From positions 1 to 64,000 of the forward strand of contig NZ_JAGBLU010000004.1 in NCBI RefSeq assembly GCF_017635265.1: a DNA stretch of 64,000 bases, given 5' to 3'. Below the pieces are notes generated by a model. It saw only the letters and a list, made by a program, of their open reading frames with translations, made no database searches and was not told the origin of the DNA. The DNA comes from Butyrivibrio sp. GTDB lineage: Bacteria; Bacillota; Clostridia; Lachnospirales; Lachnospiraceae. This document shows, piece by piece, positions 4,982-16,852 of this stretch. How positions within the stretch are numbered: position 1 is the first letter of the stretch; each line of letters opens with the position of its first letter. The translations under genes and the position numbers were made by a program.

Positions 4982-7474
4982 ATGGATAATAGTGGGGAGA
5001 ATACCGGCAATAGCTTTATGCTGAAAATCTGCGCATTTATTGTTGATAAGCGCAATCTTTTCTTTTTAATCTACGCGATTCTGTGTATTTTTTCAGTTAT
5101 TTCAAGAGGGTGGGTAGGTGTAGAAAACCAGCTGTCTGAATATCTGCCCAAAACTTCGGAGACCAGGCAGGGGCTTGATCTTATGGAGGAGCAATTCACA
5201 ACCTATGGTTCGACCAAGGTTATGGTTGCAAATATTTCATATGATCAGGCACTTTTGATTCAAAAGGATTTGGAAAGCATGGATGGTGTTTTTTCTGCTG
5301 AGCTTGACGATACAGATAAACACTACAACAACGGTTCTGCTTTGTTCAACATTACTTTTGACTATGACGAAACAGATGATATGTGTCTTGTGCTTCTTGA
5401 TCAGGTAAAAGAGTATTTTGATAAATATGACTATTATCTATCAACAACTCTTGGAGATACCCAGTCCGAGCTTATTGCCAAGGAGATGGATGTTATATCC
5501 GTAATTGTGGTTTTTGTAGTTGTGGGAGTACTTCTTCTTACGTCTCAAGCCTATGCGGAGGTACCGATACTCCTTTTGACTTTTGGAAGTGCGGCACTTG
5601 TTCAGATGGGCTCAAACTTTCTTCTCGGAACAATTTCTTTTGTATCCAATTCTGTTACAATTGTGCTTCAGCTGGCCCTTTCAGTGGATTATGCTGTTAT
5701 TTTTCTTAACAGGTATAAAGAAGAACATGCACTTTTATCTGCCAGAGAAGCCTGCATAATAGCTTTGTCTAAATCAATTCCCGAAATATCCGGAAGCTCA
5801 CTGACTACAATAGGTGGTCTTATAGCCATGCTCTTTATGCAATTCGGAATAGGAAGAGATATGGGTATCGTTCTTATAAAAGCCATATTGCTAAGTCTTT
5901 TGTCAGTGTTCCTCTTGATGCCCGGAATCATAATGCTTTTTTCAGGTCTCATGGAAAAGACAAAGCACAAGAACTTTATTCCTAAGATTCCTTTTGTAGG
6001 AAAATTTGCATATGCCACCAGATTTATTATTGCACCGGCATTCGTCGTTGTGATAATAATTGCCAACAGAATTTCTTCAGGCACACCATATGTTTATGGT
6101 TATACCAAGATAACGCCTCCGCTTATCAATGAGGTTCAGGCTGCTCAGAATATGCAGGACGACAACTTCAGATCTGATAACATGGTCGCCCTGGTATTTC
6201 CGTCAGGCGACTATGACAAGGAAAAGAAACTTATAGAGGATCTTTTGGCTGATGACAATGTTGCTTCTATAACAGGTCTTGCAAATACTGAGGCTTTAAA
6301 TGGATATACCCTTACAGAAAAGCTTTCGCCAAGACAGTTTTCCGAGCTCTTAAATATTGATTATGAAATTGCAGAGCTGATATATACAGCTTATGCCGTT
6401 AATGATGAAGACTACGCCAAGGTTGTAAACGGTCTTGCCAATTACAAAGTCCCCCTTATAGAAATGTTCATGTTTGTATATGAAGAAGTTGAAGAAGGAT
6501 ATGTGACTTTAAGCGATGATCTTATGAATAAACTTGAAGATGCGAACAGAATGATGGATTTTGCAAAAAAGCAGCTTCAGGGTGAAGATTATTCGAGAAT
6601 ACTTGTGTATTTAAATCTTCCGCAGGAATCGGATGAAACCTTTGCCTTTCTTGAGAAGATGCATACCTACGCAGAAAAATATTATGACGCGGACAAGATA
6701 TATGTGGTTGGCGAGTCTGTCAGCCAGTATGACCTTAAAAAGTGTTTTGCCAGAGATAATACAGTTACCGGTGTGATTTCAATTCTTGCGGTATTGGTGG
6801 TGCTTCTTTTTACCTTTAAATCAGCAGGTATGCCGGTGCTGCTCATTGCTGTCATTCAGGGCTGTATCTGGATTAATTTCTCTGTGCCTGCCATAGAACA
6901 TGACAATCTTTTCTTCCTGGGATACTTAATCGTCAGTTCGATTCAGATGGGTGCCAACATTGACTATGCAATCGTTATTGCGGGCAGATATACAGAGCTT
7001 CGACAGACCATGGGAAAAAGAGATGCGATTATCGATACAATGAACCTTTCATTCCCGACTATTATCACATCAGGAACAATGCTTGCTGTGGCGGGAACTT
7101 TGATTGGTAAAATGACATCTGACTGTGCTATTTATGGAATCGGTAAATGCCTGGGACGAGGAACCATTATCTCCATCCTAATTACAATGTTTGTTCTTCC
7201 GCAGATACTTTTGGTTGGAGATAAAGTCATTGAACTTACTGCATTTGTCATGAACGTACCGCTATCCACCAAACAAAGGTCAGGAACTATGCGAATAGAC
7301 GGCATGATCAGAGGCCATATTGATGGAAATATCACAGGTGTGATTCATGCTGTAGTAAAAGGAAATGTCAGCGCATTTGTTGAAAACGGTGATGTAACCA
7401 TGATGGACGAAGAACCATTTGATGCAGCTGCTGAAAACAGTGAATTCTATTATTCGGAAGGGGAGGAAAACTAA
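4982..7474 (+). CDS. MMPL/RND-type membrane transporter
   Basis: An 830-residue integral membrane protein with the internal duplication of MMPL (RND superfamily) transporters. It has one membrane segment near residues 26-41, an external loop, a first bundle of membrane helices (about 175-345), a second external loop (about 370-590) and a second bundle (about 600-760). Signature stretches are LALSVDYAVIFLNRY in the first half and QMGANIDYAIVIAGRY in the second, holding the transmembrane Asp used for proton coupling. MMPL proteins usually export lipids, surfactants or drugs; the substrate here is unknown. The ATG at 4982 follows GGGGGA at a good distance. The last ~60 residues form an unusual cytoplasmic tail of alternating Gly/Ile-Val pairs. 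The GLUG protein follows after one base. Confidence 0.88.
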   Translation: MDNSGENTGNSFMLKICAFIVDKRNLFFLIYAILCIFSVISRGWVGVENQLSEYLPKTSETRQGLDLMEEQFTTYGSTKVMVANISYDQALLIQKDLESMDGVFSAELDDTDKHYNNGSALFNITFDYDETDDMCLVLLDQVKEYFDKYDYYLSTTLGDTQSELIAKEMDVISVIVVFVVVGVLLLTSQAYAEVPILLLTFGSAALVQMGSNFLLGTISFVSNSVTIVLQLALSVDYAVIFLNRYKEEHALLSAREACIIALSKSIPEISGSSLTTIGGLIAMLFMQFGIGRDMGIVLIKAILLSLLSVFLLMPGIIMLFSGLMEKTKHKNFIPKIPFVGKFAYATRFIIAPAFVVVIIIANRISSGTPYVYGYTKITPPLINEVQAAQNMQDDNFRSDNMVALVFPSGDYDKEKKLIEDLLADDNVASITGLANTEALNGYTLTEKLSPRQFSELLNIDYEIAELIYTAYAVNDEDYAKVVNGLANYKVPLIEMFMFVYEEVEEGYVTLSDDLMNKLEDANRMMDFAKKQLQGEDYSRILVYLNLPQESDETFAFLEKMHTYAEKYYDADKIYVVGESVSQYDLKKCFARDNTVTGVISILAVLVVLLFTFKSAGMPVLLIAVIQGCIWINFSVPAIEHDNLFFLGYLIVSSIQMGANIDYAIVIAGRYTELRQTMGKRDAIIDTMNLSFPTIITSGTMLAVAGTLIGKMTSDCAIYGIGKCLGRGTIISILITMFVLPQILLVGDKVIELTAFVMNVPLSTKQRSGTMRIDGMIRGHIDGNITGVIHAVVKGNVSAFVENGDVTMMDEEPFDAAAENSEFYYSEGEEN

Positions 7475-7475
7475 C

Positions 7476-10400
7476 ATGAAAAAAAGAATATGTGTACTCC
7501 TTTTGGGAATAGTAGTTGGTTTTGAAATGCCTCTTTTAACTCTGGCAAAAGAAGGAGAGGTAGTTGAGACAGGAACCCAGCAAAGAGCAATAGAAAATGA
7601 AGTCGATGTAGACGAAGACATAAAAAAAGATATTGAAGAAAAGATTTCCGAAGATATTGAAGAAATAACAATAAATACAACCGATGAATTTATTGAATTT
7701 GCTGAAAACTGCAAGCTTGATACATGGTCAGCCAATAAAAGAGTTATCTTAAATTCTGATATATCCCTTTTGGGAACAGGATTTGAAGGAGTTCCTACTT
7801 TTGCTGGGGAGTTTGTAGGTAACGGTCATACCATAGGTGATTTTACAATAGGAAAAGACTCCTCGCATATTGGGCTTTTTATAAATCTTCAAAAGGGAGG
7901 AATTATAAAAAACTTAAAGGTCAGAGGCTCTATAATTCCATCCGGTGAAAATATCATAGTCGGAGGTATTGTTTCTGATAACAGCGGAATAATCCAAAAC
8001 TGTGAATTTGAAGGCGTTGTCACAGCCAATGACTATGTGGGCGGAATAGTGGGAATCAACCAGCTTTCCGGAGATATAAAGGAGTGTACTTCCAGAGGAT
8101 TCATTCACGGCGTTCATTATGTTGGGGGAATCGCCGGTGAGAATATGGGAAACATTTATGGATGTACCAATGAAGCACTGGTGAATACAACCAATGAAGA
8201 TACACAGATAACCATTGATTCCATGAGTGCTCTAAATAAAGTAATCTCACTTGTTAAGAATATAAACAGTACATCTGAAGAAGCAAATGCGGATGTTACA
8301 GCTTCTGATGTTGGCGGAATTGCGGGACAATCAATAGGAATAATAGGAAGAAGCATTAATATAGCAGACGTTGGGTATGAACATGTTGGCTACAATATAG
8401 GCGGAATTGCAGGAAGGCAGTCCGGATACATCTATTATTGCAACAATAACGGAAAAATACTTGGAAGAAAAGATGTAGGCGGAATAGTTGGACAGGCTGA
8501 GCCTTATATTACGGTTGATCTTAGTTCGGATATTGCTTACCAGTTATCGGAGGCAATCGGAAAACTCCATGATATTGTAACAGAAACGCTAAATGATACC
8601 AAAAATCAGTCAGGTGTTATTTCAAGCAGATTATCTGCTATACAGCAATTTACAGATGGAGCAATCAAGGATGTAAAGGTAATTGCAACCGGGGCTGTTG
8701 ATTATGCAAACGGAATATCAGGGGCAGCATCTGAGGCTTTTTCAAGGGTTGATTATGTGCTTGATGAGGCTTCAAAGGAAGATGGGCTTCTTGATCAGAC
8801 TTCAAATGCCATTAACAGTACATCCAAGTCTGTGGATGAGCTAAAAAAGGCTGTTTCGGATTTGGGCATTGAGCAGTATATGTCAGATGCCGAAAAGGAA
8901 GAATACAACAGGCATAAGGATATTTTGGAGAGTGTTGCAAGCCAATATGCAACACTTACCGCAGCTGCCGAGAAAGGTTATTATAACAAGTATATTGATG
9001 AGAATAAGTCTTCATATGAAGGGACAAGTGATCTTCAGTACAGCGGGAGCTTTGCTGACAGCTCCGACCCGGTTGAAAAATACAATGTATCGGGCTCATG
9101 GTCACATAGTACTGACGGAGCGTCTTTTCCGGTAACAGATTCGTCAGATGAAAGACAAACAGATGACATAACTCTTAGTGATAACGCACTGTCATATGCA
9201 GCAGATAATTCTGAAACCTATGCTCTTGCCAATTATACAAGTCCTGTGGATGGAACAACAGGTGCAGATTCATATTACCGTGATCTTTCTGACTCGTCTG
9301 CGCAAATAAGCTCAATAGTTTCATCCAATATTCAAAAAATGACTGAAGCAGCAAGGAGTGATGCCCTTAAATCAATGTCTTCACTGCAAAGTGCAACGGA
9401 CAGTTTAAAAGAAGCAGGAAGCGATGCAAAGAGCATTGTTACGCATGTTTCAGGAATGGATAATATTGCATTTCCTCAGTTTAGCAATGATTACAGGGAA
9501 CATACTACATCTTTTGTAAATAATATGCAGGGAATGAATGACAATTTTGGCCTTCTTAACTCTGAAATGAACAATGCTACAGGAGTAATAGTTGATGATC
9601 TTCAGGCAATGAATGATCAGTTTAATACTATAATGATGCTGTTCTCCGATGCAGTGGATGGTGTGCTTGAAGCTGACTATACAACAAATTATGAAGATAT
9701 TTCTTTTGATGAAGCGGAAAACTGTACGGATGCAACAATTGACTGGTGTATTAATTACGGTACAGTTGAAGGAGATATTGACACCGGCGGTATAGCAGGA
9801 ACAATGGCAATCGAATATGATTTTGACATGGAGAGCGATACCACAGGGATAAAGGACTCCAAACTTAACAGCTCCTATTTGACAAAATGTGTCCTTAGAA
9901 ATAACAAAAACTACAGCGATGCAACAGGAGAGAAAAACTATGTCGGCGGTATTTGCGGTCTACAGGAAATGGGGACGATATTAAAGTGCTCTAATCTTGG
10001 AAATTTAAAATCAAATTCCGGACAGTATACAGGAGGCGTTTGCGGAAGGTCATTGTCATATGTTACTAACTCAAATTCAATGGGAATTCTCACCGGAGAA
10101 TCCTATGTGGGAGGCATAGTCGGGGATGGATACAATGTAAGTGACTGTCTTTCGCTGGTTAAGATTGAGGATGCTGAAAGCTTTTTCGGGGCAGTGGCAG
10201 GGCATGTGGATGATGCCGGCGTTATCAGAAATAATACCTTTATAAGCGATGATCTTGCAGGAATAGACAGGATAAGCCATTCGCATAAAGCTGAACCTGT
10301 AAGCTATAACGAGAGTGAACTTCCCTATGACTTTAAAAAACTTAGTGTTTCTTTTGTGCTTGAGGATGAAGATATTGACGGTGGAAAAGAACTGATAAAT

Positions 10401-11186
10401 AAAGTCAGCGCCGATTATGGAGATAGTCTGGATGAAGAAGCATATCCTGAAATAAAGGAAAAAGAAGGTTATTATGTGGCATGGGATAAGGAGAGCATAG
10501 ACAGTATAAAAACCGATGAAACAGTAACGGCATCCTATGTTAAATACAGAACCACCATTTCGGAGGATATGTCTGAAACCGGTGATGGATTTTATCAGGA
10601 TGAAATACTTGTCGATGGACTGTTTAAGGAGGGTGATTATCTTACTGTAGAACATGACATACATTATGAGGATATTCAGTATGAAAAGGTGACAAAGATA
10701 AAAGATCTGGTGGAATATGAGACAATGACTGTCAATGTTCCTGATGATGGGCAAAAGACTCATCAGATAAGGATCAAGCCTTTGACAGAAATTGCAGAGA
10801 GCTTAAAGGATTTTGATGTTTATCTTGTACAGGGAGATAATGAGATTCTGCTTCAGAAAACAGGAGTTCTAGGCGATTACAATTTGTACGAAGTCGATGG
10901 TAATGCCTTTTCGTTAAAGATTAAGTTTAACGGTGCACAGAGAAAAGCATATATTGTTTTGGCTGAGATTTTTGGAATTATACTTGGCGTATTTCTGGTA
11001 ATTGCTTTGATCATTATCTTTATAGTAAGGCATAGTGGGAAACTTCCGGGAATACTCAATAAGATTTTTGGAAAGATTTCTCAAAAAATTGAGAGTAAAG
11101 AGCAGATTTTCTATGATGACAGCAGTGATGAAAAAAATGAAAGAAAAGATGACGGAAAAGAGGATGATAATGATGGCGGTAAATAG
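7476..11186 (+). CDS. large secreted GLUG-repeat protein with C-terminal membrane anchor
   Basis: The protein has 1236 residues. A signal peptide (basic start, hydrophobic core, cut near TLA-KEG) is followed by two blocks of GLUG-type repeats (motifs such as YVGGIVG, NIGGIAG, YVGGICG), roughly at residues 130-340 and 765-920. Between them is a long, mostly helical Ser/Asp/Asn-rich segment (about 350-750) resembling the coiled regions of YhgE/Pip-type surface proteins. A single membrane helix near 1163-1186 and a 50-residue charged cytoplasmic tail end it. It is translated one base after the MMPL gene with GGGGAGG as ribosome site, so the two are almost certainly one operon. It may be an external partner of the transporter or an adhesin; function is unknown. 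Confidence 0.8.
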   Translation: MKKRICVLLLGIVVGFEMPLLTLAKEGEVVETGTQQRAIENEVDVDEDIKKDIEEKISEDIEEITINTTDEFIEFAENCKLDTWSANKRVILNSDISLLGTGFEGVPTFAGEFVGNGHTIGDFTIGKDSSHIGLFINLQKGGIIKNLKVRGSIIPSGENIIVGGIVSDNSGIIQNCEFEGVVTANDYVGGIVGINQLSGDIKECTSRGFIHGVHYVGGIAGENMGNIYGCTNEALVNTTNEDTQITIDSMSALNKVISLVKNINSTSEEANADVTASDVGGIAGQSIGIIGRSINIADVGYEHVGYNIGGIAGRQSGYIYYCNNNGKILGRKDVGGIVGQAEPYITVDLSSDIAYQLSEAIGKLHDIVTETLNDTKNQSGVISSRLSAIQQFTDGAIKDVKVIATGAVDYANGISGAASEAFSRVDYVLDEASKEDGLLDQTSNAINSTSKSVDELKKAVSDLGIEQYMSDAEKEEYNRHKDILESVASQYATLTAAAEKGYYNKYIDENKSSYEGTSDLQYSGSFADSSDPVEKYNVSGSWSHSTDGASFPVTDSSDERQTDDITLSDNALSYAADNSETYALANYTSPVDGTTGADSYYRDLSDSSAQISSIVSSNIQKMTEAARSDALKSMSSLQSATDSLKEAGSDAKSIVTHVSGMDNIAFPQFSNDYREHTTSFVNNMQGMNDNFGLLNSEMNNATGVIVDDLQAMNDQFNTIMMLFSDAVDGVLEADYTTNYEDISFDEAENCTDATIDWCINYGTVEGDIDTGGIAGTMAIEYDFDMESDTTGIKDSKLNSSYLTKCVLRNNKNYSDATGEKNYVGGICGLQEMGTILKCSNLGNLKSNSGQYTGGVCGRSLSYVTNSNSMGILTGESYVGGIVGDGYNVSDCLSLVKIEDAESFFGAVAGHVDDAGVIRNNTFISDDLAGIDRISHSHKAEPVSYNESELPYDFKKLSVSFVLEDEDIDGGKELINKVSADYGDSLDEEAYPEIKEKEGYYVAWDKESIDSIKTDETVTASYVKYRTTISEDMSETGDGFYQDEILVDGLFKEGDYLTVEHDIHYEDIQYEKVTKIKDLVEYETMTVNVPDDGQKTHQIRIKPLTEIAESLKDFDVYLVQGDNEILLQKTGVLGDYNLYEVDGNAFSLKIKFNGAQRKAYIVLAEIFGIILGVFLVIALIIIFIVRHSGKLPGILNKIFGKISQKIESKEQIFYDDSSDEKNERKDDGKEDDNDGGK

Positions 11187-12029: not shown

Positions 12030-12248
12030 ATGAGTTTAACAGCAATCGGAGCAGCTATTGCTGCATTTACAGGAATCGGAGCAGGCATAGGTATCGGACT
12101 TGCCACAGCAAAAGCTACAGATGCAGTAGCCCGTCAGCCTGAAGCAGACGGCAAAATCATGAAGCTTTTACTTCTTGGTTGTGCTCTTGCAGAGGCAACC
12201 GCTATTTATGGATTCGTAGTAGCTATAATGATTATTCTTTTCTCATAA
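12030..12248 (+). CDS. atpE: ATP synthase F0 subunit c
   Basis: A 72-residue hairpin membrane protein forming the rotor ring. The polar loop ARQPEA separates two helices. The ion-carrying Glu55 lies in AEATAIY of helix 2. The position equivalent to the Na+ ligand Gln32 of the Ilyobacter ring is Ile22, and the Ser66 equivalent is Ala56, while Tyr60 is kept. The full Na+ site is therefore absent and proton coupling is the simpler prediction. AAAGGAGGATT gives it the strongest ribosome site of the operon, fitting its high copy number. Confidence 0.96.
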   Translation: MSLTAIGAAIAAFTGIGAGIGIGLATAKATDAVARQPEADGKIMKLLLLGCALAEATAIYGFVVAIMIILFS

Positions 12249-12280: not shown

Positions 12281-12772
12281 GTGTTAACAACCAGTATTGT
12301 AAACATAGCATGTACTATATTTAATCTTCTGATCCTGTATTTCTTGTTCAAGAAGTTTTTGTTCGGGAGAGTTGACAAGGTTCTGATGCAGAGAAGAGAA
12401 GAAGTTGAGACTGCCACCAAGGCTGCTGATGAGATGACAAAGTCTGCAATTGCCACCAAAAAAGATTACGAAAAGAAAATCGAAAAGGTTGATGAGGAAA
12501 AAGAGCAGATTCTGGCTGATATCAAAAAGCAGGGATATGATGAGTATGACCGTATCATAAATGAAGCAAAAAGGAGAGGCGAGCAGATTCTCGTAGAGGC
12601 AAGGCACAACGCTGAAGTTGAGAATGAGCGTGCCAAGGAAGTTTATGCAGCTCAGCTCACAGACATGGTTGTGGATGCCGCGTCTAAAATTGCTGCGACT
12701 AAGCACAGCAAGGAAGACGACATGGAACTGTATGAGAAATTTATAAGTGAAGCCGGAGCAAATAATGAGTGA
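12281..12772 (+). CDS. atpF: ATP synthase F0 subunit b
   Basis: The peripheral stalk subunit. One N-terminal membrane helix (about residues 5-27) is followed by a long charged helix with heptad character and a C-terminal part ending in AGANNE. The length of 163 residues is normal, so this is not a b-delta fusion as in mycobacteria. It starts with GTG after AAGGGG. Its last eight bases overlap the start of the delta/alpha fusion gene, which suggests translational coupling. The C-terminal end of b normally binds the delta C-terminal domain, which in this operon is attached to alpha. Confidence 0.93.
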
Positions 12773-14544
12773 ATCTTTGAAAGCAAAACTGCGATATGCC
12801 AATACTGCTCCCAGTTCAGAACAGATAGAAAAGATAAAAAAGGTTCTTGAAAAGAAATTTGAAAATGCAGACATCGATATAGAAATAAAAGAAGATCCTT
12901 CTATCGGTGGCGGATTTATCGTATCCTGCAAGAACTTTGAATATGACTGGTCTGATGCGGGAAGAGCAAGGCAATTACGCGCAGAACTTAATAACCTTAG
13001 CAGAAAGTCAGGAGACCACGATACAGGCAGGATAATATCCATGCTCGGAAGAAAAGTGGTGGATTTTGACTTGCAGGTTGAGGATAAGGAAGTCGGAAAC
13101 GTAACCTGGGTTGGTGATGGAATCGCCAATATTGATGGTATCGACCACGCTTTTTACGGAGAGATAATTGAATTTGAAGACGGCACCAGAGGAATGGCAC
13201 AGGACATAAGAAGTGACCACATCGGGTGTATTCTTTTTGGCAATGATACAGGAATCAGACAGGGAACAAGAGCAGTCAGAACCTATAAAGAAGCCGGAAT
13301 CCCTGTTGGTGAGGCTTTTATCGGAAGAGTTGTAGATGCGCTGGGCTCACCTGTAGATGGTCTTGGTGATATAAAAGAAACAAGCTACAGGCCGGTTGAA
13401 CAGCTCTCACCCGGTATTGTCGAGAGGCAGTCGGTAAATGAACCTATGGAAACAGGAATTCTTTCTATTGATACTATGTTTCCTATAGGACGAGGACAGA
13501 GAGAACTTATAATCGGTGACAGACAGACCGGTAAGACTTCCATAGCCCTTGATACCATAATTAACCAGAAGGGCAAAGACGTTATCTGTATTTATGTTGC
13601 TATAGGTCAGAAGGCATCCACCGTTGCCAAAATAGTTCAGACTCTTAAAAAGACAGGCGCGATGGACTATACAATAGTTGTAAGCTCTACTGCATCTGAC
13701 ATGGCACCGCTACAGTACATTGCACCTTATTCGGGAACGGCTATGGCAGAGTTCTTTTTACATCAGGGAAAAGATGTACTGATAGTATATGATGATCTGT
13801 CAAAGCATGCGGTAGCTTACAGAGCGTTATCTCTTCTTCTTGAAAGATCTCCCGGAAGAGAGGCTTACCCCGGAGATGTATTTTATCTGCACTCAAGGCT
13901 TTTGGAAAGATCATGTAAGCTTTCGTCAGAACTTGGAGGTGGTTCCATCACGGCACTTCCTATAATTGAGACCTTAGGCGGAGATGTATCCGCATACATA
14001 CCGACCAATGTAATTTCTATTACAGATGGTCAGATATTCCTTGAAAGTGATCTTTTCTTTGAAGGAATGAGACCTGCAGTAAATGTTGGACTTTCTGTTT
14101 CCCGTGTGGGAAGTGCGGCTCAGACCAAGGCTATGAAGAAAGCTGCGGGCAGCATAAGAGTTGACCTTGCACAGTACAGAGAGATGGCTGTATTTACACA
14201 GTTTTCATCAGATCTTGATGAGACAACCAAGAATCAGCTCCGTCACGGAAGTGTTTTGATGGAACTTTTAAAACAGCCTCTTGAACATCCTCTTAAGATG
14301 CATGAGCAGGTAATCGTCCTTGTGGCAGCCAATGCCGGAAGACTTGACTTTGTACCTGTCAAAAAAGTTAAAGAGTATAAGGAGAAGCTTCTTGGTTTTT
14401 TTAATGCTGAACAGGGTGAAATATGTGAAGAACTTGAAAAGAGCGGAGAGCTTTCGGAACAGCTAAAGAAAAAGATTCTTGATTGTGTAGATATTTTTAA
14501 TGATATTGAAAATAAAAGGCTTAAAGAAGAAATAGAAGGTATTC

Positions 14545-14558
<14 letters not shown>
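12765..14558 (+). CDS. atpA: fused delta C-terminal domain and ATP synthase F1 subunit alpha
   Basis: The protein has 597 residues against about 500 for ordinary alpha. Residues ~10-75 resemble the C-terminal domain of delta/[20 protein letters not shown], then [13 protein letters not shown], then [16 protein letters not shown], matching the family pattern of D-P-S-x-x-G-G-F and the Y-D-x-S motif. From about residue 88 the sequence is alpha, with [13 protein letters not shown], the nucleotide loop GDRQTGKT at 251-258 and the usual C-terminal half. No separate atpH lies between b and alpha, and the helical N-terminal domain of delta is missing. The ATG at 12765 follows CCGGAG and overlaps atpF. 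An internal AGGA and ATG at 13041 could start a 505-residue alpha. The reading frame is continuous. Confidence 0.9.
13029..13043 (+). promoter_or_regulatory. possible internal ribosome site and start codon for free alpha
   Basis: AGGA at 13029-13032 is eight bases before an in-frame ATG at 13041. Starting there would give a 505-residue alpha without the delta-like domain, but lacking part of the usual N-terminal helix. This is a proposal from spacing alone. Confidence 0.35.

Positions 14559-16852
<2,294 letters not shown>

Follow-up and report, generated by a model that had tools for sequence, protein, structure and literature searches.

How many protons an ATP synthase moves per ATP has been regarded as fixed by the c-ring, because every ATP synthase described to date has a single a-subunit (PMC12229609). 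In the account of Ueno et al. (2025; PMC12229609) the enzyme is restricted to a single stalk by the N-terminal domain of delta, which lies on the threefold axis, and this limit is lifted when the domain is removed and the remainder of delta is fused to alpha. Their engineered deltaDeltaN-alpha FoF1 of Bacillus PS3 (PDB 9JC1) carries as many as three b2 stalks with one a-subunit apiece, has an H+/ATP ratio of 5.8 as against 3.0, and synthesises ATP at about half the proton gradient. Cryo-EM particles with 0, 1, 2 and 3 stalks made up 15, 51, 26 and 8%, and the average was about two stalks both by gel and by H+/ATP (PMC12229609). In one paragraph of the Discussion the same authors named natural cases, in Acidaminococcus fermentans and under UniProt G4Q3K6 and A0A1I2C5T3, for which they considered a multi-stalk state highly likely and in need of verification; natural use of the arrangement is offered there as a guess (PMC12229609).

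Here we describe a fusion of this kind, and its wider relatives, starting from a locus of Butyrivibrio sp. The window, by which we mean the whole stretch of 64,000 nucleotides that was analysed, comes from contig 144; the draft genome to which it belongs has 4.15 Mb in 151 contigs and a completeness of 88%. It contains an ATP synthase operon with the canonical bacterial order of F-ATP synthase genes, in which a and b are each encoded once (Table 1).

Table 1. Features of the ATP synthase operon in the window, with positions counted from the first letter of the window.
Feature	Positions	Strand	Evidence
atpB, subunit a, 227 aa	11319..12002	+	PF00119, E 1.1e-42
atpE, subunit c, 72 aa, H+-type ligand pattern (I at 32, E-A-T at 65-67)	12030..12248	+	
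atpF, subunit b, 163 aa, GTG start	12281..12772	+	PF00430, E 3.3e-14
deltaCTD-alpha fusion gene, 597 aa, start taken as ATG 12765	12765..14558	+	
delta C-terminal (b-binding) domain, residues 2-77	12768..12995	+	local profile
Pfam OSCP part of the delta C-terminal domain, residues 17-75	12813-12989	+	PF00213
linker and alpha N-terminal helix (IISML...), retained	12996..13079	+	
in-frame ATG, residue 93, moderate Shine-Dalgarno energy (-6.5)	13041..13043	+	
alpha subunit proper: beta-barrel, nucleotide-binding and C-terminal domains	13080..14555	+	TIGR00962, residues 90-579
atpG, gamma, 309 aa	14545..15474	+	PF00231, E 2.6e-83
atpD, beta, frame of 480 aa; true start may be slightly inside	15410..16852	+	translation; likeness to beta frames of other loci
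atpC, epsilon, 143 aa	16849..17280	+	PF02823, E 3.4e-19; PF00401, E 7.5e-13

The first-pass annotation of this locus had proposed that the C-terminal domain of delta is joined to alpha in one frame, that the N-terminal domain of delta is missing from the fusion, and that no separate delta gene lies between b and alpha, and each of these points is borne out. The joined frame of 597 residues holds a complete alpha, with Pfam alpha domains from residue 109, and is opened by a PF00213 match above the curated cut-off (E 1.7e-7 for the full-length protein, 1.5e-8 for residues 1-94 taken alone). That match begins at model position 114 and runs to position 172 of 172, and the C-terminal domain delimited by the local profile begins at residue 2 of 597; the delta N-terminal domain is absent. 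When 60 such N-termini were built into a profile, solved delta subunits were matched by it at the C-terminal domain; for the Bacillus PS3 delta (6n2y) the match covers residues 104-176 with an E of 6.9e-12. No separate delta frame was found between b and alpha in the window operon, and b is a frame of its own, so there is no b-delta fusion either. The stop of atpF overlaps the start of the fusion gene, of which the first in-frame start codon is GTG 12747 and ATG 12765 a possible opening. Among the NCBIfam matches listed (25 of 39), those to the fusion gene all begin at residue 90 or later and none spans the joined part. Directly upstream of the operon (7419-11186) is a frame of 1255 aa in which several GGI-G-like repeats occur and a hydrophobic segment lies close to the C-terminus; judged by eye, it is probably a surface protein.

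The same annotation had known of no description of this form, and in this it was mistaken, as Ueno et al. (2025) built it, solved it and named natural cases (PMC12229609). The window gene is thus a further instance of a form that had been engineered, and given a single paragraph on its natural occurrence, in 2025. Alignment of the 9JC1 chain with a profile of natural fusions extends over the C-terminal domain, the linker and the alpha N-helix, interrupted by just one gap, of one residue (E 3e-16), and the alpha N-terminal helix is retained behind a short linker as in the construct. What is new here is the breadth and history of the natural fusions. A full-text literature search, with most subscription papers outside its reach, returned Ueno et al. 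(2025) as the only work among the matches listed that deals with the deltaDeltaN-alpha form, and nothing was found there on that breadth or on the full-length fusions, stand-alone and tandem domains and triple chain described below.

Alpha loci fall into several forms, of which the commonest in our collection are the short fusion, as in the window, the full fusion with a whole delta, and separate delta and alpha genes. In a first set of 80 loci, the best of 592 ranked by likeness to the fused query, these numbered 44, 18 and 18, and among the first 100 alpha genes classed there were 50 short fusions, one of which is truncated at the end of its contig, 28 full fusions of 669-698 aa and 22 separate genes. 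The final collection of 171 loci comprises 76 short fusions, 35 full fusions, 53 separate genes, four stand-alone C-terminal domains, one delta with tandem domains, one b-deltaCTD chain and one b-deltaCTD-alpha chain; because the loci were unevenly drawn and include stretches fetched for looking odd, these counts are not frequencies. Eighteen loci were left out before this count, namely the stretches of the window itself and of the Na+ operon of its genome, shorter copies of longer loci, one stretch without an F-ATPase, and, in error, L116 and L119, which are same-genus short fusions and not copies; L103 was left out with a broken alpha, and loci from L190 on are later additions. Four near-identical rows (L108 and L114, short; L132, separate; L137, full) are kept in the 171 and were removed for the tree only. 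An even sample of the window's class gave the fused frame in at least 33 of 291 genomes and in 16 family codes, the window's own included (32 of the 33 were domain-checked), and a phylum sample of 299 genomes, at least ten of them of the window's class, gave it in at least six genomes outside the class, all six domain-checked. Gene order is identical in all 100 of the 171 loci that have a, c, b, alpha, gamma, beta and epsilon in view. Measured from where the delta domain ends, the alpha core is 29 away in the window gene, and the median is likewise 29 in the short and in the full fusions.

Some of the forms resemble intermediates. Stand-alone genes for the delta C-terminal domain, of 77-92 aa, lie between b and alpha at L151, L152, L153 and L154 (genomes G157, G161, G400 and G196, respectively), and a delta of 261 aa at L150:3271-4056 (G401) has two C-terminal domains in tandem. 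At L098:2105-2788 (G065) b and the delta C-terminal domain form one chain of 227 aa with no delta N-terminal domain, and at L106:1656-3992 (G068:C33) b, the delta C-terminal domain and alpha share a single frame of 778 aa. The latter chain is the only PF00430 match above the cut-off in G068, which has two weak ones below it, and it contains the only F-type alpha found; a search of the genus of G068 gave no further chain of this kind, which is thus known from a single genome. The operon at L098 also has gamma and beta in one frame (L098:4317-6617, 766 aa), as does L162:5597-7957 (G277, 786 aa), so that rotor is joined to stator; strong ribosome sites precede the beta start in both (-12.5 and -8.4, respectively), and therefore beta can also start alone. 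In seven loci of the large short-fusion branch (L030, L044, L045, L050, L052, L074 and L078) some 45 or more residues at the N-terminus of the c frame resemble, by eye, a signal peptide.

To follow the history of these forms, a tree of 164 rows was made from alpha, beta, gamma and a (three further rows of the 171 failed length or edge filters); this tree and those cited below are quick searches. With branches of support below 95 collapsed, and with both changes taken as irreversible, that is without fission or regain, a minimum of nine losses of the delta N-terminal domain and of 12 fusions of delta to alpha is required; without collapsing, the counts are 13 losses and 19 fusions. Under irreversibility, fusion and domain loss have therefore each arisen repeatedly. 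On their order in the lineage of the window the trees differ. A five-subunit tree of 95 rows groups this lineage with fusions alone, in a branch of 37 rows (support 97; 21 short, 16 full), and a thinned alpha tree of 69 rows does likewise in one of 10 rows (support 98), both of which favour fusion before loss; the 99-row alpha tree, in which the window's branch of eight short rows is sister to a mixed group with supports of 81-89, does not, and the collapsed 164-row tree is neutral. Elsewhere loss can also come first, since stand-alone, b-joined and alpha-joined forms occur together in a nine-row group of the 164-row tree from which the N-terminal domain is absent. The proposition that the domain is lost only after fusion is ruled out by the stand-alone C-terminal domains of four genomes. 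Those fusions outside the window's class that were included in the alpha tree (family codes f99, f117 and f188) fall in its other, fully supported half, and therefore probably arose apart from the window's.

F-type alpha genes were counted with PF00306 in 20 chosen genomes, and 11 of them have exactly one, which is fused. In nine of these the fusion is without the N-terminal domain (G043, G062, G068, G071, G079, G109, G130, G142 and G137) and in two it is with it (G050 and G082); of the other nine genomes, G065 has one alpha beside its b-deltaCTD chain, six have two alphas and two have none. A single PF00213 match at E 0.001 was obtained for each of the 11; for seven of them the match rows are not among the matches listed, and the match of G137 reads upstream across two stop codons. 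Completeness is 94-99% for ten of the 11 and 81% for G137. The sole alpha being fused and the delta match single, the fused enzyme appears able to function with no other delta.

The genome of the window differs from these in having a second complete F-ATPase operon, on contig 64, which is canonical, with an alpha of 506 aa and a two-domain delta of 179 aa (atpH at G000:C64:54736-55275). In its c subunit E at 32 and E-T-T at 65-67 make up the Na+ pattern, in a position numbering of the Na+ ligands that we assume to hold for c subunits, and this pattern is lost in the c subunit of the window operon (I at 32, E-A-T). RnfC and an Ech-like 49 kDa subunit are also encoded. One missing ligand indicates the H+ type (PMC11738941), and butyrivibrios are described in reviews as having one Na+ and one H+ ATP synthase (PMC11026938, PMC11187502), both activities having been found in membranes of Pseudobutyrivibrio ruminis (Schoelmerich et al., 2020, as told in PMC11026938 and PMC11187502). 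Three Pseudobutyrivibrio loci (L014, L017 and L076), which are not from P. ruminis itself, have a full-length delta-alpha fusion in the corresponding operon, and the H+ activity measured in P. ruminis may therefore well have come from a fused enzyme.

We consider it somewhat better than an even chance that the window encodes an H+-type F1Fo-ATP synthase which lacks a delta cap and in at least some molecules has more than one stalk. With a delta C-terminal domain on each alpha, the top of F1 would offer three equal docking places for b, and no delta N-terminal domain would occupy the threefold axis. By analogy with the engineered enzyme, two or more b2 stalks, with an a-subunit apiece, would then most likely dock in at least part of the molecules, and more stalks would mean more protons per ATP and hence ATP synthesis at a low proton gradient, by an enzyme that would stand in the cell beside a canonical Na+-type enzyme with a single delta. 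Several stalks are taken as most likely because the natural gene shares the features of the engineered chain. The domain content, the 9JC1 alignment, the sole fused alpha in 11 of 20 genomes, and the contrast between an H+-type c in the window and a Na+-type c with a full delta on contig 64, together with RnfC and the Ech-like subunit, all count towards this reading. So do the lack of a conserved internal start, discussed below, and the constraint on the C-terminal domain, which is alike in all forms, with mean distances of 0.598 in short fusions, 0.613 in full fusions and 0.608 in separate genes (mean alpha distances 0.281, 0.259 and 0.255). Against it stand the one a and one b gene, the weaker ribosome sites of b, the window's internal ATG 13041 and the finding that only part of the engineered particles were multi-stalk (PMC12229609). 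A further point against it is the N-terminal domain of the full fusions: relaxed constraint, as expected of a domain made redundant by tethering, was not found (distance 0.692 as against 0.677 in separate genes; 256 and 474 pairs), so that this domain still does something in full fusions, and three copies of it per head are hard to place. The interpretation of the first-pass annotation as a whole is supported in part.

A serious rival, though less likely than not, is that the enzyme has a single stalk with a covalent anchor, such that the fusion replaces the grip of the N-terminal domain, one C-terminal domain binds b2 and two remain unoccupied. A single stalk was seen in half of the engineered particles (PMC12229609), and the stand-alone C-terminal domain genes of four genomes imply that the N-terminal domain is dispensable even without fusion. 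The single a and b genes of the operon agree with one stalk, as does the ribosome site of b, which is weaker in fused operons (median -7.4 in short fusions as against -9.5 in separate genes, p 2.7e-6); that of a is stronger (-8.0 as against -2.9, p 3e-4), and both contrasts are confounded because the classes differ in taxonomy. Ribosome-site strength, pointing in opposite directions for a and b and confounded by kinship, was accordingly rejected as a stand-in for stalk number. However, nothing seen in the sequence would restrict docking to one site, and the engineered equivalent averages about two stalks (PMC12229609).

Processing or internal initiation could instead yield one fused and two free alpha subunits per F1, restoring the usual single delta C-terminal domain, which we think improbable. 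Candidate starts do exist: ATG 13041 in the window gene, and in the L106 chain an ATG at residue 276 with a ribosome site of -7.7, to which may be added the strong internal sites before beta in the gamma-beta frames of L098 and L162. Of 22 separate alpha genes, 16 show a ribosome site near their start that reaches at least the strength of -6, mostly at about -10.8. In-frame starts near the junction reach -6 in six of 28 full and nine of 49 short fusions, where about 3.4 and 6.7 are expected by background (43 and 86 candidate codons at 0.078 each, the rate inside alpha over 1577 codons), and the searched junction stretch has no ATG, GTG or TTG at all in six of the 28 and 11 of the 49. ATG 13041 is not conserved as a start, its ribosome site being -2.5 to -4.1 in four close relatives, and a start there would cut into the alpha N-helix. 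With junction starts at about the background rate and no conserved site, a general internal start making free alpha is unlikely; as a conserved source of free alpha it was rejected, and single candidate ATGs remain in the window gene and in L106.

That the full delta of the contig 64 operon caps the fused enzyme in trans is very improbable. A complete atpH elsewhere in the genome had been raised as a possible objection to the fusion; such a gene is indeed present in the same genome, and it fails to refute the fusion because it belongs to a complete operon of its own and because in 11 other genomes the sole F-type alpha is fused and accompanied by a single delta match. An assembly or sequencing error that joined two genes, conceivable in a draft of this kind, is a negligible prospect, since chance or error as the source of the join is excluded by its recurrence in isolates and single-contig genomes: the same short junction occurs in the nearest named relatives, Butyrivibrio INlla18 and INlla21 (88 and 86% identity), and in the single-contig genomes G173 and G426, and the complete genome AP018536 carries a full-length fusion.

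Returning to an enzyme with more than one stalk, we tentatively propose, as something a little short of an even chance, that Clostridia and their kin have repeatedly made F-ATP synthases with three docking sites, bearing two or three b2 stalks with their a-subunits, as a low gear for weak gradients; that butyrivibrios run an H+ version beside a single-stalk Na+ enzyme; and that the b-deltaCTD-alpha chain of L106 in G068 fixes one b per alpha. We know of no stator of this last kind, with one b per alpha in a single chain. The census indicates repeated origin of the fusion and of intermediate-like forms in gut and rumen bacteria, sometimes as the only F-type enzyme found, and because of these repeated origins the guess of natural multi-stalk use is testable now in several separate lineages, including relatives of Pseudobutyrivibrio ruminis, with its reported H+-dependent ATP synthase activity in membranes. 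If these enzymes are multi-stalk, nature may have made a low-gear motor many times, for use at a weaker proton gradient.

Among known systems, V/A-type ATPases have two or three stalks around one head, made of unrelated stalk proteins, with one a-type subunit. The mycobacterial enzyme with its b-delta fusion keeps one whole delta. The mycobacterial and N-ATPase b-delta proteins, as described, resemble the window's in that delta material is fused to a stator neighbour, but the partner there is b. The N-ATPase gene order is beta-epsilon-X-X-a-c-b(delta)-alpha-gamma, from which the window's a-c-b-alpha-gamma-beta-epsilon differs, and the fusion alpha scores 586.7 bits against TIGR03324, which we take to be the model for N-ATPases, below its cut-off of 750.5. 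From the canonical bacterial F-ATP synthase the window operon is set apart by the absence of a separate two-domain delta. The natural proteins of Acidaminococcus fermentans, G4Q3K6 and A0A1I2C5T3 are delta-alpha fusions without the N-terminal domain, like the window's; Ueno et al. (2025) give them one paragraph, with no census in the available text, in which the present work differs (PMC12229609). The engineered PS3 FoF1 is man-made, has a truncated epsilon and is the system in which stalk number and H+/ATP were measured, whereas the window enzyme is known from its genes, but the two share the delta C-terminal domain on the alpha N-terminus, the deletion of the delta N-terminal domain and a junction of nearly equal length (PMC12229609).
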